A DNA stretch of 64,000 nt. Origin: Sphingomonas kyeonggiensis. Its GTDB lineage: Bacteria; Pseudomonadota; Alphaproteobacteria; Sphingomonadales; Sphingomonadaceae. The position numbers were made by a program, and so were the translations under genes. Below, one piece after another: positions 1 to 23,469 of the stretch. The notes under the pieces are model-generated. The model was given only the letters and a program-made list of their open reading frames with translations. It did not search any database and had not been told where the DNA came from. Every line of letters starts with the position of its first letter. Within the stretch, counting starts at the first letter, position 1. The DNA is taken from NCBI RefSeq assembly GCF_014204495.1, contig NZ_JACHLN010000001.1:930001-994000 (forward strand), written 5' to 3'.

Positions 1-92
1 TTCTGGAGGATGGCCGCAGCCTCCTCCTCGCCGACCAGCATCATCAGGACCGCGGCGCGCTCGACGCCGTTGAAGCTGCGGATGGCGTTCAT
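1..92 (-). CDS. fliG: Flagellar motor switch protein FliG, N-terminal fragment (cut by window edge)
   Basis: Only the first 30 codons are in the window. They start MNAIRSFNGVERAAVLMMLV and continue with an acidic stretch (GEEEAAAILQ), which fits the FliG N-terminal domain that binds FliF. The ATG at 92 overlaps the fliF stop by 4 nt (ATGA), so the two are translationally coupled. FliG is the C-ring protein that transmits torque from the stator and helps switch rotation direction. The call rests on position after fliF plus the N-terminal match; the rest of the gene lies outside. Confidence 0.85.
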   Translation of the reverse strand, partial: MNAIRSFNGVERAAVLMMLVGEEEAAAILQ

Positions 93-1777
93 TGCGCGTC
101 TGCCTTGATCATGTCGCGCACCGCCAGAGCGGCGCGGGCCGGATTGTCGCGCGTGAAGCCGCGGACCAGGCCGACGCGCTCGTCATAGCTGTTGCCGGCG
201 CTTTCGAGCATGTCGATCGAGACCGGCGGGGCGCCCGGGCCAGCTTCCTCACCGGACGGACCGCTCATCGACAGCGCCGGGCGATTGCCGGCGCCAGCGG
301 GCTCCTCGCGCTTCTTGAGCAGCGCCTTGGTGAGCGGGCGGACACCGAGGAAGAGGACCAGCAGCGCGATCACCAGCGCAGTGGCGTTGCGCGCGGCGAG
401 CGGAACCCAGGGCGCGTCATACCAGGCCGGCCCCTTGTCGGCGGCATCGGCGGTGGTAGTGAACTTGCGGCTGATCACGGTGACCTGATCGGCGCGGCCC
501 TGATTATAACCGACCGCGGCCTGGACCAGCTGGGTGACCTGCTGGATCTCGACCTGCGAGCGCGGCTTGCCCGATTCTTCGCGCAGCAGCACCGCGACCG
601 AAAGGCGCTTGATGCCGCCCGGGGCCTGGCGGGTGACCGAGACCTGCTTGCCGGTCTCATAGGTGCGAGTGAAGCTGTCGCTCTGCTTCTGCGGCGTCGC
701 CTGGCTGGCGCCGGCAGCGGTGGTGGCACCGGGCGCGGCAGCGGCACCGGGCGTCGGCTGCGCGTTTGGCGCGGTGATCGTGCTGGCGGGCGGCGGCGTG
801 TTGGAGAGCGCGCCGGGGATGCCGCCGGGAGCCTGGCCATCCTTGGAGCCGGTCCAGGCGCCCTGCTCGGCGGCGAGGACGGCGCCTTCCTTGTCATAGC
901 TTTCGCGGGTCGCCTGGTTCTCGTCCAGGTCGACATCGGCCTGGACTTCGGCGGTAAAGTTGCCGGCACCGACCAACGGGGTCAGCAGCTGGACGAGCTG
1001 CTCGCGATACTTGTCCTCGATGCGGCGCTGATAGTCGATGCGGGCGTCGCCGGCAGCATTGGCCTCATTGCCCTTCTTGGAGAGCAAGGCACCCATCTGG
1101 TCGACGATGGTGACGCCCTCGGGCGCCATGCCGGGGACCGACGAAGCGACGAGGTTGACGATCGCGCGGGTCTGCGCGTCGCCCAGCGCGCGGCCGGGCT
1201 GGAGCTTGAGGACGACCGAGGCGGTGGGCTGAGTCTTGTCGCGGACGAAGACGCTGGCCTCGGGCGTGGCGAGATGGACGCGGGCCTCCGCGACCGAATC
1301 GATCTCCTCGATCGAGCGGGCGAGCTCGGTCTCGCGGGCCTGACGCAGGCGCTCGCCCTCGACAGCGCGGGAAACGCCCATCGGGAGCTGGTCGAGGATT
1401 TGGTAGCCGCCGGGTGCCGCCTTGGGCAGGTTCTGGCTGGCGAGCAGCATCCGGGCCTTGTGGAAATCATCCTCGGCGACGGTGATCGAGCCGGAACTGT
1501 CGATGCTCGACTTGATGCTGGCGCCGTCGAGCGCCGTGGTGATCGCCGCCTTGTCGGCATCGGTCACGTTGGCGAACAGGATCCGCTGCGGCGGGGTCGA
1601 GACCAGCGACCAGGCGAGGAAGCCAGCGGCGACCAGGCCGATCAGGAAGATCAGCGGCATCGCGCGCTTCACGGCGGGCTGGGCGAGGATGCCGCGCATC
1701 TGGGCGAGCGGCGCGCCGAAACGGCCCGCGGAGGCAGGCAGGAGGGGCGCATCGGTGGGGGTGAGGGCGTTGCTCAT
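89..1777 (-). CDS. fliF: Flagellar MS-ring protein FliF
   Basis: 562 aa, a usual length for FliF. It forms the MS ring in the inner membrane, the base on which rod, C ring and export gate assemble. Two membrane segments are visible, at about residues 40-60 and 464-482, enclosing a long periplasmic region with the YscJ/FliF-type motif LPMGVSRAVEGERLRQARE. A Pro/Ala/Thr-rich linker lies near residues 310-370. The C-terminal tail (GFTRDNPARAALAVRDMIK) matches the FliG-binding end. It lies 3 nt after fliE and overlaps fliG by 4 nt, in the leftward unit flbD-fliE-fliF-fliG. Confidence 0.95.
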   Translation of the reverse strand: MSNALTPTDAPLLPASAGRFGAPLAQMRGILAQPAVKRAMPLIFLIGLVAAGFLAWSLVSTPPQRILFANVTDADKAAITTALDGASIKSSIDSSGSITVAEDDFHKARMLLASQNLPKAAPGGYQILDQLPMGVSRAVEGERLRQARETELARSIEEIDSVAEARVHLATPEASVFVRDKTQPTASVVLKLQPGRALGDAQTRAIVNLVASSVPGMAPEGVTIVDQMGALLSKKGNEANAAGDARIDYQRRIEDKYREQLVQLLTPLVGAGNFTAEVQADVDLDENQATRESYDKEGAVLAAEQGAWTGSKDGQAPGGIPGALSNTPPPASTITAPNAQPTPGAAAAPGATTAAGASQATPQKQSDSFTRTYETGKQVSVTRQAPGGIKRLSVAVLLREESGKPRSQVEIQQVTQLVQAAVGYNQGRADQVTVISRKFTTTADAADKGPAWYDAPWVPLAARNATALVIALLVLFLGVRPLTKALLKKREEPAGAGNRPALSMSGPSGEEAGPGAPPVSIDMLESAGNSYDERVGLVRGFTRDNPARAALAVRDMIKADAQ

Positions 1778-1780
1778 GGA

Positions 1781-2149
1781 TTACACCGGCATGCTCATGA
1801 TGTCCTTGTAGGCGGACAGGAGTTTGTTGCGGACCTGCAGGGTCGCCTCGAAGCCGACCGAGGCCTGCTGGCGAGCGAGCATCACCTTGGCGATGTCCAC
1901 GGTCTCGCCGCGTTCATAGGCCTCGGACAGCGCACCGGCCTGGGCCTGGGACTGGTTGACCTGCTTGAACGCCTCTTCCATCGACGAGGTGAAGCTGGTC
2001 GACTTGGTGCCCGAGGCGCCGGTGATCGTGCCGGCCGGCGTCTCATTGGCCTTGGCGAGCGCGGCGTTGCGCTCGAGGATCTGGGCGCGGAGCGCCATGA
2101 CGCGATCGACGCTCATCGCGCCGCCGCCGATACCGTCCACGCCGCTCAT
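1781..2149 (-). CDS. fliE: Flagellar hook-basal body protein FliE
   Basis: 122 aa, slightly longer than the usual roughly 105 aa because of an Ala-rich N-terminus. The C-terminal half (SFTSSMEEAFKQVNQSQ, then GETVDIAKVMLARQQASVGF and a final VRNKLLSAYKDIMSMPV) is the conserved FliE helix pair that joins the MS ring to the proximal rod. The ATG overlaps the end of the upstream regulator gene by 4 nt, and fliF follows after 3 nt, so all three are probably one transcript. Confidence 0.93.
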   Translation of the reverse strand: MSGVDGIGGGAMSVDRVMALRAQILERNAALAKANETPAGTITGASGTKSTSFTSSMEEAFKQVNQSQAQAGALSEAYERGETVDIAKVMLARQQASVGFEATLQVRNKLLSAYKDIMSMPV

Positions 2150-3405
2150 GCCGAAGCCCTCGCCTTACCGAAGTCGATGCTCTCGCCCTGCTCGCGTGCC
2201 TTGGCGAGGCGGTAGCGCAGGGTGCGCTCGGAGATGCCGAGCCGCTTCGCCGTCTCGATCCGGCTGCCGCCGCATTCGGCGAGCACGTCGCGGATCGCGG
2301 CGAATTCGTGGATCTGGACGATGTTGGACAGCGTGCCCGCAGTCTCGACCTCGATGCGGCGCACCACGGGGCGATCGAAGATCAGGTGCTCGGGATCGAT
2401 GGTGCGGCCGCCGCAGAGCAGCAGCGCGCGCTGGATGACATTCTCGAGCTCGCGGACATTGCCGGGCCAGTCATGGCCGAGAAGCGCGTCGAGCGCGGCG
2501 TTCGAGATCCACGGCATCGCGCCGCGGCCGCCGGCATGGCGCACGACCATCGCGGCCGACAGCGCGGCGATGTCGCCGGGGCGCTCCGCGAGCGCGCGGG
2601 TGGCGAGCGGAAAGACCGAGAGGCGGTAGTACAAGTCGGCGCGGAAGCGACCGGCGGTGACTTCGCCCTGCAGGTCGCGGTTGGCGCAGGCGATGACGCG
2701 GACATCGACCTTCTCCGGCATGGTCCCGCCGATCGGCACGACCTCGCGCTCCTGCAGCGCGCGGAGCAGCTTGGCCTGGAGGTTGAGCGGCATCTCGGCG
2801 ATCTCGTCGAGCAGCAGGGTGCCGCCATGCGCGGCGCGGAAGAAGCCCTGGCCGCCCGAGGAGGCACCGGTGAAAGCGCCCTTCTGGTGGCCGAACAGCA
2901 TCGCCTCGAGCATCGTCTCGGGCAAGGCCGCGCAGTTGATCGCCACGAACGGCCCGTCCTTGCGGGCGGAGTTGTTGTGGATCGCGCGGGCCAGCACTTC
3001 CTTGCCGGTGCCCGTCGGGCCGTTGATCAGCACGGTGATGTCGGACGCGGCGACGCGCTCGGCCAGCGCGAGCAGCGCCAGGCTCTCGGGATCGGCGGCG
3101 ACGGGCTCGTGCGGGCCGCGCAGCAGCGCGGTAGCGAAGCCGGCACCGACGGCGGCGTCATCCGAGGTATAGGAAAGGCGGGCGGGGTTGCCGTCGCCGA
3201 ACGCGATCGCCTGGCGGCCTTCGTCGCCGAGGATCAGCGTGCGCGCGGCGGCCGGGGGCACTTCGCCTTCCGCCACCAGGAACAGGTCATGTGCGCCGGG
3301 GCGGCCGTCCTCGCCCGCGCCGATCGCAAAGCCCTGGGCCCGCAGCGACGAGACGAGCGCATATTTCTGGCGAAGCACGGCGGCCGACGGAAGGATGGAT
3401 CGCAT
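2146..3405 (-). CDS. flbD: Sigma-54-dependent transcriptional activator, FlbD-like
   Basis: 419 aa from the ATG at 3405, chosen because a strong AGGGGG lies 7 nt upstream; an in-frame GTG at 3423 would add six residues. The AAA+ domain shows Walker A GPTGTGKE, the sigma-54 contact loop GAFTGA and Walker B TLLLDEI. The C-terminus has a Fis-type helix-turn-helix ([22 protein letters not shown]). The first 110 or so residues do not show the acidic pocket or phospho-acceptor Asp of a normal receiver domain, as in the FlbD family. Position ahead of fliEFG and the nearby sigma-54 promoters suggest it activates middle and late flagellar genes. Confidence 0.88.
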
Positions 3406-9027: not shown

Positions 9028-9915
9028 TTACGCTCCCAGGTTCGCGAGCATGAGATAGGCGAGGCGGGCATTTTCCGGCGTCGGGCGCAGCGGATCGATG
9101 CGGCGGCCGAGCGGATCGCTGGCAGTGGCGCCCTGCGAAACATTGAGCTGGGCGAGCGTGTTCTGCACCCAGTGCCGGTCGCTATCGACCGCGCCATTGC
9201 CGAGCACGACTTCATTGTCGCCGTCGCTCCAGGCGCGGGCGGCGGCGCTGAAACCGCCATCCAGGCCGTCCGAGGCGAGGCCGCTGGCGCCGCCCGCGGC
9301 AGCGCCCTGGTCGAGCTTGCCGGCGAAGCGGCTATAGATTTCCGAAAGCGTGCGCGGCTGGCCGTTCGAGGCGTAGAACACGCTGCGATTGGCGCGCGCG
9401 GCGGCGGGGAACATGCTGGCGCCGGTGCGGCCCGGGCTCTCGGCCATCGCGCTCAGGAACTTGTCGGCGCCGCCCAGGCCCAGGAAGTGCGCCATATAAA
9501 GGTCGGTGCCGGTGGCCGGGCGGCCGAGGCTGTCCTCAAGCGACGCCTTGTTGTCGGCGGCATGTTCGGCGGCCATCAGCGAGGCGGTCTGCGGATCGCT
9601 GCGCAGGTTGAGGATCGCGCTGCGGGCGGCGGGATCGCTCACCACATAGCGGCCGGTGCTGGTCTGCTTGATGCTGTCGGCGGCCCAGGACAGGCCATGC
9701 TCGGCGCCGTGCTGCTTGACCACGCCGAGCCAGCTCTGCTCGATGAACTGGTAGAGGCCGGTCGCCGAGGAGGTGCCGGCGCGCGCGTCCGCCTTCAACC
9801 CGCTCTCGACCTGTGCCTGGCCGAGCAGATAGTTGAAGTCGATGCCGGTCTTGCGGCTCGCCGCGGCGATCGCCGTCTGGACGCTTGCCCTGGTATTGAC
9901 CGAAGTGACGCTCAT
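9028..9915 (-). CDS. Lytic transglycosylase, SLT family, probably flagellar
   Basis: 295 aa. The catalytic Glu is at about residue 37 in QAQVESGLKADARAG, followed by SSATGLYQFIEQSW and, at about 145-160, YMAHFLGLGGADKF, the pattern of the SLT transglycosylase fold. It would cleave peptidoglycan so the rod can pass. There is no obvious signal peptide, so export may be through the flagellar apparatus; the C-terminal 100 residues are Gly/Ala-rich. FlgJ here (18867-19223) has only the rod-cap domain, so this protein may supply the missing wall-cutting activity. It is the first gene behind a sigma-54 promoter. Confidence 0.85.
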   Translation of the reverse strand: MSVTSVNTRASVQTAIAAASRKTGIDFNYLLGQAQVESGLKADARAGTSSATGLYQFIEQSWLGVVKQHGAEHGLSWAADSIKQTSTGRYVVSDPAARSAILNLRSDPQTASLMAAEHAADNKASLEDSLGRPATGTDLYMAHFLGLGGADKFLSAMAESPGRTGASMFPAAARANRSVFYASNGQPRTLSEIYSRFAGKLDQGAAAGGASGLASDGLDGGFSAAARAWSDGDNEVVLGNGAVDSDRHWVQNTLAQLNVSQGATASDPLGRRIDPLRPTPENARLAYLMLANLGA

Positions 9916-9954: not shown

Positions 9955-9970
9955 AGCAAGGACCGTGCCA
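9955..9970 (-). promoter_or_regulatory. Sigma-54 promoter upstream of the transglycosylase-flhA-fliA unit
   Basis: On the minus strand the site reads TGGCACG-GTCC-TTGCT, an exact match to the -24/-12 consensus TGGCACG-N4-TTGCW. It ends about 40 nt before the transglycosylase ATG at 9915. A CGGCGA-ACAT-TTGCCG palindrome lies about 100 bp further upstream at 10069-10084. Confidence 0.88.
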
Positions 9971-10001: not shown

Positions 10002-10313
10002 TCAGGCGAGGGCGTAGCCGCCGGCCTTGTAGGAAGGCGCCTGCTGACCGGAAAGGATTTGCAGGCGGCGGCGAACATTTGCCGCCATCAAGTTCACATA
10101 GATTCGGCAGGTCTCGTTGAGCTTGTGCGCTTCGGCCGCCAGCTCACGGATCTCCGGGCCCGGTGCCTCGCCGTCATAGAGCGCGACCGTGTCGATCGCG
10201 GCGAGCTTGGCCTGGGTAGCCCTTTCCAGCCCGGCGACGTCGCTCGCCTTCAGTGCCGTAATCTCGGCATGAAGGCATTCGATCACCTGGATGAGCGCAT
10301 CACGCCGGGTCAT
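10002..10313 (-). CDS. flgN: FlgN-like flagellar export chaperone
   Basis: 103 aa from the ATG at 10313, which overlaps the flgM stop by 4 nt (ATGA). The protein is mostly helical (TRRDALIQVIECLHAEITAL, then HKLNETCRIYVNLMAANVRR), as expected for a FlgN-type chaperone of the hook-filament junction proteins FlgK and FlgL. Sequence identity in this family is low, so the call depends on size, helical pattern and position directly after flgM. Part of the coding region (10069-10084) carries a possible operator for the next transcription unit. Confidence 0.7.
   Translation of the reverse strand: MTRRDALIQVIECLHAEITALKASDVAGLERATQAKLAAIDTVALYDGEAPGPEIRELAAEAHKLNETCRIYVNLMAANVRRRLQILSGQQAPSYKAGGYALA
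10069..10084. promoter_or_regulatory. Candidate activator site, CGGCGA-ACAT-TTGCCG
   Basis: A 6-4-6 palindrome with one mismatch, of the same form as 12526-12541 and 12504-12519. It lies about 100 bp upstream of the sigma-54 promoter at 9955-9970, a usual distance for an enhancer-binding protein. It is inside the flgN coding sequence, so codon constraints could have produced it by chance. Confidence 0.45.
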
Positions 10314-10597
10314 TGGTTCGGCTTCCATTCGAGCTTGTAGGCGAGCAGGCGGTCGGCGATCTCTGCCGGATAGAGCGGGAAGCGCTTCTCCTGGATCGCC
10401 TTGCGGATCCGGGCGACGCGCTCGCTGTCGACCGGCGGCTGGGCGGCCTGGTCGCTTGCCATTGCCGCCGCGGCGCTCTGCACCGCCGGGCTGTCGCTTG
10501 CCACCGGACGCACCGAAGCGACCCGGGCGGCAGGTTCAACGGGCACAGTGCGACGGTCGCCGACCGCGCCTGCCTTCGTGCCGATTGATTCCACCAT
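10310..10597 (-). CDS. flgM: Anti-sigma-28 factor FlgM
   Basis: 95 aa from the ATG at 10597, with GAGGA 9 nt upstream; an in-frame TTG at 10606 lies too close to that sequence. The N-terminal half is low-complexity and probably disordered. The C-terminal half (SERVARIRKAIQEKRFPLYP, then AEIADRLLAYKLEW) matches the sigma-binding helices of FlgM. It would hold FliA inactive until the hook is finished and FlgM is exported. A sigma-28-like promoter lies directly upstream and flgN overlaps the 3' end. Confidence 0.9.
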   Translation of the reverse strand: MVESIGTKAGAVGDRRTVPVEPAARVASVRPVASDSPAVQSAAAAMASDQAAQPPVDSERVARIRKAIQEKRFPLYPAEIADRLLAYKLEWKPNQ

Positions 10598-11209: not shown

Positions 11210-11262
11210 CTTCTTCTCCTGGTGGAAAGGCCGGCAAGGGGCGGCAATTGCCGGGCGGCAAA

Positions 11263-11769
11263 TCATTGCCGCCCCCCTTCGAAGCCGAGGGTGAGGACGG
11301 CACGGCGCTGGCCGCGGCCGGTGGAAATCACGATCCGCGAGGGATCGATCGCGTGCTGGTGAATGAGCAGGGCGGCGACTGCACGGGCGCGATCGGCAGC
11401 CAGGATTGGCCCGCTACCGGTGGCGGGATCGACGTCCGCCGCCGATCCATCGACCTCGCCGGTGATCCGCAGGCGGGTGCGCGGATCGCGCGCGGCACCG
11501 CGTGCCCATTCGAGCGCCGAGGCCGTGACGACCGGCACGGCCGAGCCTGGCACGAAGCCGGTGGCAGTGGCGATATCGACCGGCATCGGCGCCGGCGCAG
11601 CCGCGCTTTCACTCGCGCCGAAACCCGAGCGGATGCCCGCGGCGAGCTTCATGGGATCGACCTGGCTCGCCTGTAGGAAGACGAAGAAACCGACGAGCAG
11701 CAGCGACAGATCGGCCAGGGTGACCAGCCAGGGCGCGCGCGCGGGTTCCTCGTCGTCGAACGCAGTCAC
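11263..11769 (-). CDS. Small MotB-like protein (one membrane helix plus reduced OmpA-like domain)
   Basis: 168 aa. The N-terminus APWLVTLADLSLLLVGFFVF aligns with the MotB helix, including the Asp (residue 20) that carries the proton in stators. The C-terminal part (LRITGEVDGSA, AADRARAVAALLIHQHAID, RIVISTGRGQRRAVLTLGF) resembles an OmpA peptidoglycan-binding fold but is short, and key residues of the usual binding loop are not obvious. It overlaps the MotA-like gene upstream by 4 nt. Canonical motAB lies at 21634-23469, so this would be a second proton channel of flagellar or other function. Confidence 0.65.
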   Translation of the reverse strand: MTAFDDEEPARAPWLVTLADLSLLLVGFFVFLQASQVDPMKLAAGIRSGFGASESAAAPAPMPVDIATATGFVPGSAVPVVTASALEWARGAARDPRTRLRITGEVDGSAADVDPATGSGPILAADRARAVAALLIHQHAIDPSRIVISTGRGQRRAVLTLGFEGGRQ

Positions 11770-12434
11770 GCCGCGATCTCCTTGAGCGTGCCGCTGCCGG
11801 GTTCGATGCCGGCAAGCGTGGCGAGCGCGGGCTGGAGACGAAGCCGCTCCTGCGCCTCGTGCCGGGCACGGCGCTTGAGCCGCGTTGCGACCGGCAGCAG
11901 CGCGAGATTGGCGAGCAGCGCGCCATAGAGCGTCGCGAGCAGCGCCACGGCCATCGCGCCGCCGATCGCCTGGGGATCCTTCATCGCGGCGAACATGCCG
12001 ACCAGGCCGATCAGCGTGCCGACCATGCCCATCGCCGGTGCCAGTTCGGCCGCACCGGACCAGACTTCCCAGCCGCCGCGATGCCGCTCGAACCGGGCGC
12101 AGCGGCGCTGCTCGAGCAGGATCTCGACATCCTTCGCACCGGCACCGTCGACGATCGCGGCGACCGCGGCAGCGATGTCCGGGTCCTCGATCTTCGAGCG
12201 ATCGAGCGCGATGACACCGTGGCGCCGCGCGATCCGGCCGAGCGCCGAAACCTGGGCGACCAGCGGCTCGACATCGAAACGGCGGCGCGGCAGCTGGCCC
12301 AGCGCGACAACACCGCGGGCAAGGTCACCCGATGCGTTGCGCAGCACCGTGCCCGCCACCACGCCCCCGCCGACAATGGCGAGTGCGAGCGGATCGAGGA
12401 AAGTCCCGAGCGCGGGAAGCACATTCATATCCAT
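11766..12434 (-). CDS. MotA/TolQ/ExbB-family proton channel protein
   Basis: 222 aa with membrane segments at about residues 14-31, 131-150 and 158-184. The block LAPAMGMVGTLIGLVGMFAA, then IGGAMAVALLATLYGALLAN with a following Pro, is the MotA-type pore pattern. It is shorter than canonical MotA (287 aa here). The ATG at 12434 begins one base after the start predicted from the sigma-54 promoter at 12446-12461, so translation may be leaderless or begin at the ATG at 12428. It is cotranscribed with the MotB-like gene. It may be an auxiliary stator or a flagellum-linked energiser. Confidence 0.75.
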   Translation of the reverse strand: MDMNVLPALGTFLDPLALAIVGGGVVAGTVLRNASGDLARGVVALGQLPRRRFDVEPLVAQVSALGRIARRHGVIALDRSKIEDPDIAAAVAAIVDGAGAKDVEILLEQRRCARFERHRGGWEVWSGAAELAPAMGMVGTLIGLVGMFAAMKDPQAIGGAMAVALLATLYGALLANLALLPVATRLKRRARHEAQERLRLQPALATLAGIEPGSGTLKEIAA

Positions 12435-12445
12435 GCCCGCATGGG

Positions 12446-12461
12446 TGCAAGAGACGGGCCA
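12446..12461 (-). promoter_or_regulatory. Sigma-54 promoter of the MotA/MotB-like pair
   Basis: On the minus strand TGGCCCG-TCTC-TTGCA, one mismatch from the -24/-12 consensus. The predicted transcription start (12 nt after the -12 C) is near 12435, directly beside the ATG at 12434. It lies in a divergent gap shared with the flgB promoter. Confidence 0.72.
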
Positions 12462-12503: not shown

Positions 12504-12551
12504 CGGCAACGCCCTGCCGACACGCCGGCAAAACCTTGCCGCCCGTTGCCG
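12504..12551. promoter_or_regulatory. Cluster of CGGCAA/TTGCCG palindromes between two sigma-54 promoters
   Basis: Three elements are seen: CGGCAA-CGCC-CTGCCG at 12504-12519 (one mismatch), a perfect CGGCAA-AACC-TTGCCG at 12526-12541, and a half site TTGCCG at 12546-12551. They lie about 45-90 bp from each of the two divergent sigma-54 promoters. This is the expected place for an enhancer-binding protein, most simply the FlbD-like activator at 2146-3405. Confidence 0.65.
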
Positions 12552-12593: not shown

Positions 12594-12609
12594 TGGCACG
12601 ACGGTTGCA
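12594..12609 (+). promoter_or_regulatory. Sigma-54 promoter of the flgB-flgL operon
   Basis: TGGCACG-ACGG-TTGCA, an exact match to the -24/-12 consensus, ending 35 nt before the flgB ATG at 12645. The predicted start would leave a leader of about 25 nt containing the GGGAG ribosome site. Confidence 0.92.
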
Positions 12610-12644: not shown

Positions 12645-12998
12645 ATGCCCAATGACAACCTCTTCGGCGTACATGGCACAGCGCTCGCCGTGCGCTCGCA
12701 GCGCATGGGCATGCTGGCGTCGAACATCGCGAACGCCTCGACGCCGGGCTACAAGGCCAAGGACGTGGATTTCCGCGCCGCGCTCAACAGCGCGACCAGC
12801 GGTACCGGTTCGATCGACACCGCGATCGACGCCAACACGCTCTACCGCGTGCCGCTCCAGCCCTCGGCCGACGGCAACACGGTCGAGCTGACCACCGAGC
12901 AGACCGCCTTCGCCGAGAATGCCGTCGCGTACCAGACGACGCTGTCGTTCCTGAACGGCCGCATCAACCAGATCACGCGCGCGCTGAAGGGAGAATAA
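12645..12998 (+). CDS. flgB: Flagellar proximal rod protein FlgB
   Basis: 117 aa from the ATG at 12645, with GGGAG 8 nt upstream; an upstream in-frame TTG is less likely. The motif RSQRMGMLASNIANASTPGYKAKDVDFRAAL is spread over residues 20-50 and is the rod/hook family N-terminal signature (NIANASTPGYK). The C-terminal helix QTTLSFLNGRINQITRALKG is usual. It is the first gene of a run of ten hook-basal-body genes, behind the sigma-54 promoter at 12594-12609. Confidence 0.93.
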   Translation: MPNDNLFGVHGTALAVRSQRMGMLASNIANASTPGYKAKDVDFRAALNSATSGTGSIDTAIDANTLYRVPLQPSADGNTVELTTEQTAFAENAVAYQTTLSFLNGRINQITRALKGE

Positions 12999-21633: not shown

Positions 21634-22497
21634 ATGTTTCCGGCAATCGGCCTCGTCATCCTGCTGGCAATGGTCTTCGGTGGTTTCGCGATCACCGGCG
21701 GCGCGCTCGGCCCCGTGCTCGAAGCCATCCCGCATGAGATGCTGATCATCGGCGGCGCCGCCGCCGGCGCGCTCGTCATCGGCAACTCCACCAAGGAGCT
21801 GAAGGCGCTCGGCGGCGGCCTGGCCAAGGTACTCAAGGGCCCGAAATACAAGAAGCAGGACTATCTCGACACGATCTTCCTGGTCTCGAAGCTGATGAAG
21901 ATGCTGCGGACCGAAGGCCCGATCGCGCTCGAGCCGCATGTCGAGGATCCCAAGTCCAGCGCGATCTTCGCCGAATATCCGCGCCTGCTCGCCGATCACA
22001 CGCTGATCAACCTCATCACCGACACGCTGCGCCTTGTCGTCGTCTCTTCCGGCACGCTCGACGTGCACGCCGTCGAGGAAGTGATGGATAACTCGATCAA
22101 GACCCATCATCACGAAGTCCAGGGCCCGCAGACCACGCTCCAGTCGCTCGGCGACGCACTGCCAGCGCTCGGCATCGTCGCCGCCGTGCTCGGCGTGGTG
22201 AAGACCATGGGCTCGATCGACAAGCCGCCGAGCATTCTCGGCGCGATGATCGGTTCGGCGCTGGTCGGCACCTTCATGGGCGTGCTGCTGGCATATGGCA
22301 TCGTCGCGCCGCTCGCCGGCCGCCTGCAGCAGGTGATCGATGCCGATGCGGCGATCTATCACGTCGTGAAGCAGATCATTATCGCTTCGCTCCACGGCCA
22401 CCCGCAGCCGCTGGTGATCGAAGCGGCGCGTTCCAGCATCGCGCACGCCAACCAGCCGGGCTTCGGCGAAGTGTTCGACGGGCTGAGGGGCCGGTAA
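21634..22497 (+). CDS. motA: Flagellar motor stator protein MotA
   Basis: 287 aa, the canonical length. Membrane helices lie at about residues 3-22, 33-50, 170-190 and 200-222. The cytoplasmic loop carries the charged residues that touch FliG (LMKMLRTEGPIALEPHVEDP), and the pore block is LPALGIVAAVLGVVKTMGSI, then GAMIGSALVGTFMGVLLAYG. It forms the stator with MotB directly downstream. No clear sigma-54 or sigma-28 promoter was recognised in the 164-bp gap before it. Confidence 0.95.
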   Translation: MFPAIGLVILLAMVFGGFAITGGALGPVLEAIPHEMLIIGGAAAGALVIGNSTKELKALGGGLAKVLKGPKYKKQDYLDTIFLVSKLMKMLRTEGPIALEPHVEDPKSSAIFAEYPRLLADHTLINLITDTLRLVVVSSGTLDVHAVEEVMDNSIKTHHHEVQGPQTTLQSLGDALPALGIVAAVLGVVKTMGSIDKPPSILGAMIGSALVGTFMGVLLAYGIVAPLAGRLQQVIDADAAIYHVVKQIIIASLHGHPQPLVIEAARSSIAHANQPGFGEVFDGLRGR

Positions 22498-23469
22498 GTG
22501 GCTGCGCAGCGCGCACCCCATGGGAACCAGCTCCAGCCGAAGATCATCGTCAAGAAGATCATCGTCGAGGGGCATGGCGGCCATCACGGCGGCGCCTGGA
22601 AGGTGGCCTATGCCGACTTCGTGACCGCGATGATGGCGTTCTTCCTGCTGCTGTGGATCCTTGGCGCCACCACCGAGAAACAGCGCAAGGCGCTTGCCGA
22701 CTATTTCGCGCCGACCCTGGTCGAACTGAAGCAGAACAGCGCCGGCTCGAACGGGCTGTTCGGCGGCGAGGCGATCAACCAGCGCGACAATTATCCCGGC
22801 AAGGCATCGCAGACCGGCACCAAGTCGCTGACCGTGCCGGTGGGCGGCGCCGGCGGCAAGGACGTCGGCACCGGCAGCAAGGGCACGCTCAAGGACCAGC
22901 GCGCGCTGACCCAGCAGGACCAGAAGAATTTCGAGGAAACCGCCAAGCGCATCCGCCAGCGCATGCGAATGACTCCGGCGCTGTCGAAGCTCGCCAACCA
23001 TGTCCGCTTCGTGCCGACGCGCGACGGCATGCGGATCGACCTGCTCGACGACGCCAATTATTCGATGTTCAACTTGGGCACGACTGCCCTGGTGCCCGAA
23101 GCGAGCGCGCTGATCGGCACGATCGCCGAATCGATCAAGGGCATGGAAAACCCGATCATGATCCGTGGCCATACCGACAGTCTCGGCTATGGCGATCCGC
23201 TGGCGATGAACAACTGGATGCTCTCCAGCGGCCGCGCCGAGGCCACGCGCCGGCGCCTGCTGTCAGGCAGCGTTACCGAAACGCGCTTCGAGCGGATCGA
23301 GGGCGTAGCCGACCGTGAGCCGCTGATCGTCGAGAATCCCGCCGACCCGCGCAACCGCCGCGTCTCGATCACCCTGCTCTATCGCCGGATCATGGACCAG
23401 GACCAGCAGGGCCGCTTCCGCCCGGGCCTGCGCGCCAGCCGCGAAGCCGGCGCGCCGCTCGAGCACTGA
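22498..23469 (+). CDS. motB: Flagellar motor stator protein MotB
   Basis: 323 aa from a GTG that directly abuts the motA stop, with GAGGGG about 8 nt upstream. The single membrane helix VAYADFVTAMMAFFLLLWIL contains the proton-binding Asp (about residue 40). The C-terminal OmpA-like domain shows IMIRGHTDSLGYGDPLAMNN, then SSGRAEATRRRL and NRRVSITLLY, for peptidoglycan anchoring. Compared with the MotB-like protein at 11263-11769, all landmark residues are present. Confidence 0.95.
   Translation: MAAQRAPHGNQLQPKIIVKKIIVEGHGGHHGGAWKVAYADFVTAMMAFFLLLWILGATTEKQRKALADYFAPTLVELKQNSAGSNGLFGGEAINQRDNYPGKASQTGTKSLTVPVGGAGGKDVGTGSKGTLKDQRALTQQDQKNFEETAKRIRQRMRMTPALSKLANHVRFVPTRDGMRIDLLDDANYSMFNLGTTALVPEASALIGTIAESIKGMENPIMIRGHTDSLGYGDPLAMNNWMLSSGRAEATRRRLLSGSVTETRFERIEGVADREPLIVENPADPRNRRVSITLLYRRIMDQDQQGRFRPGLRASREAGAPLEH

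Follow-up and report, generated by a model that had tools for sequence, protein, structure and literature searches.

Within the 64,000-nucleotide stretch of Sphingomonas kyeonggiensis DNA analysed here (the window, corresponding to positions 930001–994000 of its contig), the inverted repeat CGGCAA-N4-TTGCCG recurs next to sigma-54 promoters of flagellar genes, and this raises the question of which protein, if any, reads it. A sequence-only reading of the window had proposed that the repeat is the binding site of an FlbD-like activator encoded at 2146–3405 and had likened it to the ftr elements of Caulobacter FlbD, which are said to look similar. The analysis described below retains the proposed protein and changes its identity: conservation, proximity, helical phasing and co-occurrence make the product of 2146–3405 the candidate reader, whereas the label "FlbD-like" does not hold. 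It is predicted from sequence, with high confidence, that CGGCAA-N4-TTGCCG serves as enhancer for an activator of the FleR/FlrC type in which no receiver domain is recognisable.

Palindromes and sigma-54 sites in the flagellar cluster

The flagellar cluster of the window comprises fliF, fliE, the sigma-54 activator gene, a flagellin gene, flhA, a gene with an SLT domain, flgN, flgM, flgA, motB and motA, and continues with flgB, flgC, flgD, flgE, flgI, flgK and a second motA–motB pair; the features discussed here are listed in Table 1. The two motA–motB pairs, at 11263–12434 and 21634–23469, flank the flagellar operon, the former being short and weakly matching and the latter giving a good Pfam match. 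When the best 80 FlhA loci were collected, Sphingomonadales stood on top and the remainder were mostly Gammaproteobacteria.

Table 1. Features of the window that bear on the palindrome and its candidate reader (a point marks features listed without a strand)
Feature	Position	Strand	Remark
fliF	89–1777	-	
fliE	1781–2149	-	directly downstream of the activator gene
Receiver-less FleR/FlrC-type sigma-54 activator (AAA+ with GAFTGA, Fis-type HTH)	2146–3405	-	candidate reader of the palindrome
Gene matching SLT (muramidase-like) weakly, short of the Pfam cut-off	9028–9915	-	between flgN and flhA
Sigma-54 promoter of the SLT-domain gene	9955–9970	-	exact
flgN-like gene	10002–10328	-	harbours an internal palindrome
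One-mismatch palindrome inside flgN	10069–10084	.	sigma-54 site at 9955 lies 107 bp away
Second perfect palindrome	11256–11271	.	at the motB end, about 46 bp before the flgA start; role uncertain
motA-like gene	11766–12434	-	
Weaker sigma-54-like site	12446–12461	-	one mismatch (TGGCCCG), just before motA
One-mismatch palindrome	12504–12519	.	22 bp (two turns) from the perfect site at 12526–12541
Perfect palindrome, CGGCAAAACCTTGCCG	12526–12541	.	candidate enhancer, between the flgB and motA starts
Half site TTGCCG	12546–12551	.	perfect site about 20 bp away; several relatives have comparable half sites
Sigma-54 promoter of flgB, TGGCACG-N4-TTGCA	12594–12609	+	exact; GG 50 bp before the ATG
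flgB	12645–12998	+	opens the rod-hook series flgB, flgC, flgD, flgE and onward

The centre of the perfect palindrome between flgB and motA lies 61 bp upstream of the GG of the flgB −24 element and 73 bp upstream of the corresponding GG on the divergent motA side, and the neighbouring one-mismatch copy lies 83 bp and 51 bp, respectively, from the same two positions. These two sites, the adjacent half site and the copy inside flgN had all been placed correctly by the sequence-only reading; of the three sigma-54 promoters that it named, those of flgB and of the SLT-domain gene are exact, and the motA-side site carries one mismatch. It had overlooked the perfect palindrome at 11256–11271, beside which no sigma-54 site was seen and for which relatives showed no consistent counterpart; this copy is possibly a chance repetition.

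At up to two mismatches the window contains 20 palindrome matches against 6.0 expected, a number reached by none of 100 shuffles. On the scale of the whole genome (4,957,855 bases in 8 contigs), perfect copies number four, against one for the backward control, and one-mismatch copies, at 56 against 45 for the control, are near background, so that a single imperfect copy says little alone. Three of the four perfect copies fall inside the flagellar cluster, at contig positions 926362 (in fliK), 941256 and 942526, and the fourth, at contig position 631361, lies between rne and the amiC–mrcA pair. The genome contains nine exact TGGCACG-N4-TTGC sites, of which the two in the flagellar cluster are alone in having a palindrome with at most one mismatch within 300 bp; none was present within this distance of the 21 one-mismatch promoter-like sites that were examined out of 89 (the motA-side site at 12446 is outside these 21).

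Paired copies also occur at two other places on contig 1. In the fliK coding region (926362–926397), a perfect and a one-mismatch palindrome, beginning at 926362 and 926382, are 20 bp apart, and no well-placed sigma-54 site was found for them. Between rne and amiC–mrcA (631361–631398), a similar pair beginning at 631361 and 631383 is separated by 22 bp, with no well-placed sigma-54 site and no flagellar gene among the neighbours examined.

Conservation and helical spacing of the palindrome

Of the best 80 FlhA loci, 22 contain a recognised flgB gene, and together with the window these gave 23 rows. The palindrome had been expected to persist at flagellar promoters of relatives, and it does: a perfect copy is located upstream of the flgB sigma-54 site (the latter with zero to two mismatches) in 17 of the 19 Sphingomonadales rows, window included. 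It is absent from the flgB region of the other two (L027 and L028) and from that of the four rows representing other alphaproteobacteria (L033, L039, L040 and L064). Across the 17 sites the twelve half-site bases are invariant because only perfect matches had been selected; the middle four bases vary nearly freely, a freedom that does not stem from this selection. The distances from the centre of these palindromes to the promoter GG are 51, 51, 51, 52, 52, 52, 53, 61, 62, 63, 63, 73, 74, 83, 83, 83 and 103 bp. In 37 genomes of the genus, perfect palindromes number 103 against 54 for the control, and about half of them are thus background.

The spacing was analysed further in 296 Sphingomonadales genomes, one per species, which were searched, so as to avoid any selection on distance, for a palindrome with TGGCACG-N4-TTGC behind it and a gap left free over 31 values. 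Distances of 45–75 bp yielded 44 matches in 44 genomes, and distances of 76–106 bp yielded 26 matches in 25 genomes, with no match for the backward control in either range; both ranges together give 70 palindrome–promoter pairs in 60 of the 296 genomes. The 70 centre-to-GG distances cluster at 52, 61–63, 73 and 82–84 bp. Their best period is 10.65 bp (R = 0.667, and 0.665 at 10.5 bp), and the largest R among 2000 uniform simulations, each evaluated at its own best period, was 0.395; when equal distances were collapsed within each genus (n = 43), R at 10.5 bp was 0.505 against 0.472 for the largest simulation. Within 1.5 bp of the grid 52 + 10.5n lie 58 of the 70 distances, the other 12 being off by more than 1.5 bp; this grid was set after the data had been seen, and the period scan is the fairer test, yet many genomes of the same genus in it share ancestry.

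Two perfect palindromes precede a single promoter in seven other genomes, at 18–23 bp from each other, as compared with 22 bp for the pair in the window. In one genome (G036), a single palindrome stands between divergent promoters, at 63 bp from the one and 84 bp from the other. On the motA side, the spacing to the promoter in relatives ranges from 83 to 494 bp with no clear phase. In another genome (G223, contig 13, 60413–60512), two sigma-54-like sites with 21 bp between them come after one palindrome, and their distances of 57 and 78 bp are both off the usual phase.

The palindrome inside flgN encodes part of an invariant peptide, AANVRRR, and its conservation could therefore come from the protein. 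Codon choice was compared at invariant four- or six-fold columns, where a codon was counted as rare at a usage of 10% or less. The Ala codon at the site is GCA in nine of nine species, although GCA makes up 5.3% of the Ala codons in these genes, and the Val codon is GTT (usage 4.5%) in six of the nine. Among 516 invariant columns in seven genes, this Ala is the sole column with one same rare codon in all nine species, the near-misses being one other flgN column and one flhA column with the same rare codon in eight of nine; the uniqueness of GCA suggests that the DNA at the flgN site is itself constrained. The flgN-internal palindrome has at most one mismatch in five of nine loci, in which the next sigma-54 site is 107, 107, 116, 172 and 217 bp away, and with distances this different, phasing does not apply at this site. 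In two loci (L018 at 8745 and L019 at 8697), a one-mismatch palindrome is present a few codons further on in flgN, and the one in the usual place is more mismatched. Judging from gene order, the sigma-54 promoter at 9955–9970 probably serves flhA as well.

The activator and alternative explanations

The protein encoded at 2146–3405 matches the Pfam Sigma54_activat family (4.3e-67), contains the GAFTGA loop and a Walker A motif (GPTGTGKE), and has an HTH of the RTLRYKLAQMR type found in FleR/FlrC; the recognition helix is invariant across nine activators. Its gene directly precedes fliE–fliF in the window (3405–89) and in eight relatives, a position that FleR/FlrC genes presumably share in Pseudomonas and Vibrio. 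Among proteins of solved structure, V. cholerae FlrC is closest in sequence (284 bits), followed by ZraR (245) and FleQ (218), and FlrC is also the best fold match of a model built from nine orthologues (mean pLDDT 73.9). In a 51-row tree, the activator groups with the FleR/FlrC proteins of Pseudomonas, Vibrio, Shewanella and Alteromonas with a support of 97/90; with rows L209 and L210 added, which we take to be LafK-like activators of lateral flagella, the support is 99/96. On these sequence comparisons, the activator belongs with FleR/FlrC and not with FlbD.

A receiver was not recognisable: Response_reg was not found in any of the nine orthologues up to an E value of 1, and neither the VEDD of the acidic pocket nor the phosphoacceptor stretch SDxxM had a counterpart when the nine were aligned with seven FleR/FlrC proteins. 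Full-length NtrC1 aligns with the model at a large rmsd, and the activator may, as modelled, have a decayed receiver fold. The gene upstream of the activator encodes a divergent flagellin, and no kinase gene was seen next to the activator. With the phosphorylation site missing, the usual switch is not available to this activator.

A profile of the nine activators was searched against 80 Sphingomonadales genomes picked by hand, comprising 39 of the 60 motif-bearing genomes and 41 of the 236 others. The FleR-like activator is present in all 39 of the former and in 17 of the 41 without an exact palindrome and promoter match, three more of the 41 being ambiguous; the co-occurrence is significant by Fisher's test (p ~1e-9, or 3e-8 with the ambiguous genomes counted as present), with possession of this flagellar system as a partial confounder. 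Other activators score no more than 300 bits and the three ambiguous proteins score 322–328 bits, close to the weakest motif-bearing case (G156), which reaches 333 bits over part of the protein. Two further FleR-like activators, L193 of Rhodobacteraceae and L197 of SAR116, are sister to the sphingomonad ones and end before the HTH. In their genomes (those of loci L042 and L040, respectively) the flgB sigma-54 site is present and the palindrome was not found at up to three mismatches, two cases that agree with a reading of the word by the HTH.

The palindrome could be recognised by any dimeric HTH protein, and with 12 matches to the FlbD model the genome encodes several other sigma-54 activators. 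The true reader might accordingly be a different DNA-binding protein, such as a FleQ-like protein, another sigma-54 activator or a repressor, that merely co-occurs with the flagellar system. We regard this as unlikely, because the helical phasing with the −24/−12 element points to an activator that touches the sigma-54 polymerase, the gene at 2146–3405 lies in the same cluster as the palindrome, an invariant half site goes together with an invariant recognition helix in its product, and a box of the same kind exists in Pseudomonas, which bears FleR.

Among 119 genomes from the genus to which Pseudomonas sp. Fl4BN1 belongs, this box takes the form CGGNAA-N4-TTGCCG with a sigma-54 site in 62 (control, 0), always at 71–73 bp (71 bp in 37 genomes, 72 bp in 8 and 73 bp in 17) where 50–80 bp was allowed; because the spacer DNA is related, the 62 genomes represent one conserved promoter rather than 62 independent cases. 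The distal half site is CGGAAA or CGGTAA in all 62 and never CGGCAA, and the one box whose location was determined is directly upstream of flgB. Of 18 flgB loci in 16 other genomes, six, belonging to Pseudomonas, its relatives Stutzerimonas and Halopseudomonas, and Thalassolituus, have a box with at most two mismatches at 60–74 bp. The flgB region of Vibrio yielded no similar box, and the boxes of Shewanella and Alteromonas are far from the flgB promoter.

Considerably less probable is the explanation from which the analysis started, namely that the palindrome is an ftr element read by FlbD, represented either by the window protein or by an FlbD-clade protein that the same genome encodes in a second flagellar cluster. 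FlbD is likewise a sigma-54 flagellar activator, and the window protein does match the NCBIfam FlbD model, but with 312.7 bits against a cut-off of 750 bits; the cut-off, which 27 of 115 genomes of the class pass, is strict and a weak criterion, as the FlbD-clade protein of this genome itself attains only 455 bits. FlbD proteins form a separate clade in the 51-row tree (100/97) with the window activator outside, and their HTH (GNRTHAANILGISIRTLRNKL) differs from that of the window activator. In addition, 80 alphaproteobacterial genomes outside Sphingomonadales were surveyed, and none of them, including the 53 with a strong FlbD, had the palindrome 40–100 bp from a sigma-54 site, as sought with a pattern that finds the window site and may not fit the flagellar promoters of FlbD genomes. 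The ftr interpretation finds no counterpart in this range and, considering also the tree, the missing receiver and the existence of a second, FlbD-clade protein, the FlbD explanation was rejected.

The FlbD-clade protein is encoded on contig 3 (377489–378833) and has GAFPGA where activators have GAFTGA; its long branch (1.68) makes its place in the tree less sure. Around its gene lies a second flagellar cluster with fliF, fliG, fliH, fliN, flhA, fliK, flgD and flgI, the gene itself being positioned between fliN and flhA (L191; contig 3, 366000–385999), and the genome thus encodes two flagellar systems with different activators. The surrounding 20 kb contain neither a perfect palindrome nor a sigma-54 site of at most one mismatch, which together with GAFPGA suggests that the FlbD-clade protein may have lost its sigma-54 role.

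The idea that the palindrome acts as an RNA hairpin or terminator has a negligible probability and was rejected, for although folding of the stretch is somewhat better than that of shuffled sequences (z = −2.75), its place is upstream of a promoter and between the starts of two divergent genes, no terminator-like site was found, loop and flanks show little conservation, and the spacing from the promoter is phased. Chance repetition in a GC-rich genome would fit the background-like numbers of one-mismatch copies and of about half of the perfect copies in the genus, but it is just as improbable and is refuted for the flgB site by the 17 of 19 loci with a perfect copy at the same promoter, by 70 promoter-linked pairs against none in the control and by the phasing, and the rare-codon retention in flgN also speaks against it.

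Proposed mechanism and comparison with known systems

With the FleR/FlrC-type activator as the reader, a dimer would bind one palindrome through its Fis-type HTH, and neighbouring palindromes two helical turns apart might help several dimers to assemble into the AAA+ ring. The ring would face the sigma-54 polymerase across a short loop, because the palindrome is a whole number of turns from the −24/−12 element, and the right helical face would be needed for this contact. ATP hydrolysis would then open the flgB promoter and hence activate the rod-hook operon. The flgB-side palindrome could also serve the divergent motA side, and the flgN-internal copy could serve the promoter ahead of the SLT-domain gene and flhA.

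A broader picture, to which we attach moderate confidence, is that the Sphingomonadales use a receiver-less FleR/FlrC-type activator with an enhancer on the same face of the helix, about 51–84 bp away, whose spacing evolves in whole turns, and that they keep the copy in flgN at a rare-codon cost. The box shared with Pseudomonas would mean that regulator and DNA word travelled together between classes.

No description of the palindrome word or of its phasing was found in the open-access literature, and the literature matches to the letters TTGCCG were unrelated among the matches listed. A FleR motif derived from HT-SELEX in Pseudomonas syringae exists (PMC7532196), and the word itself may already be known from it. 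With this prediction, flagellar activators of the FleR/FlrC type would have a concrete recognition word in two classes of proteobacteria. Enhancer geometry can also be studied as a natural experiment, in which dozens of species lie near 52, 62, 73 or 84 bp and few lie between, and the whole-turn spacing allows a simple model for the way such activators get to their target to be tested. How an activator with no phosphorylation site senses the readiness of the basal body is a question that follows from it.

The class III activators FleR (Pseudomonas) and FlrC (Vibrio) resemble the window activator in being AAA+ sigma-54 activators with a Fis-type HTH and, on the gene order assumed above, neighbours of fliE–fliF, and the Pseudomonas genomes share a near-identical box; the differences are that the window activator lacks the receiver phosphorylation segment and has no kinase gene seen next to it, and that the Pseudomonas box reads CGG[A/T]AA where a perfect palindrome is present here. 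The LafK-like proteins (L209 and L210) are the nearest outgroup of the FleR/FlrC clade and have a similar HTH, but branch outside the group that unites FleR/FlrC with the sphingomonad activators (97/90). FlrC sites are described as typically downstream of the start site, working as true enhancers (PMC6504787), whereas the box in the window is upstream and helix-phased. FlbD of Caulobacter, likewise from an alphaproteobacterium, is described as activating rod-hook genes together with sigma-54 (PMC7064773), a role that corresponds to the one predicted here, and the FlbD/ftr system differs in its separate clade and in the absence of the motif–promoter pair from all 53 FlbD genomes over the distances tested. 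Finally, Rhodobacter sphaeroides, with fla1 and fla2, likewise has two flagellar gene sets in one genome, and flbD is absent from the Rhodobacteraceae species shown in that source (PMC6180460), whereas the second set of S. kyeonggiensis contains an FlbD-clade gene.
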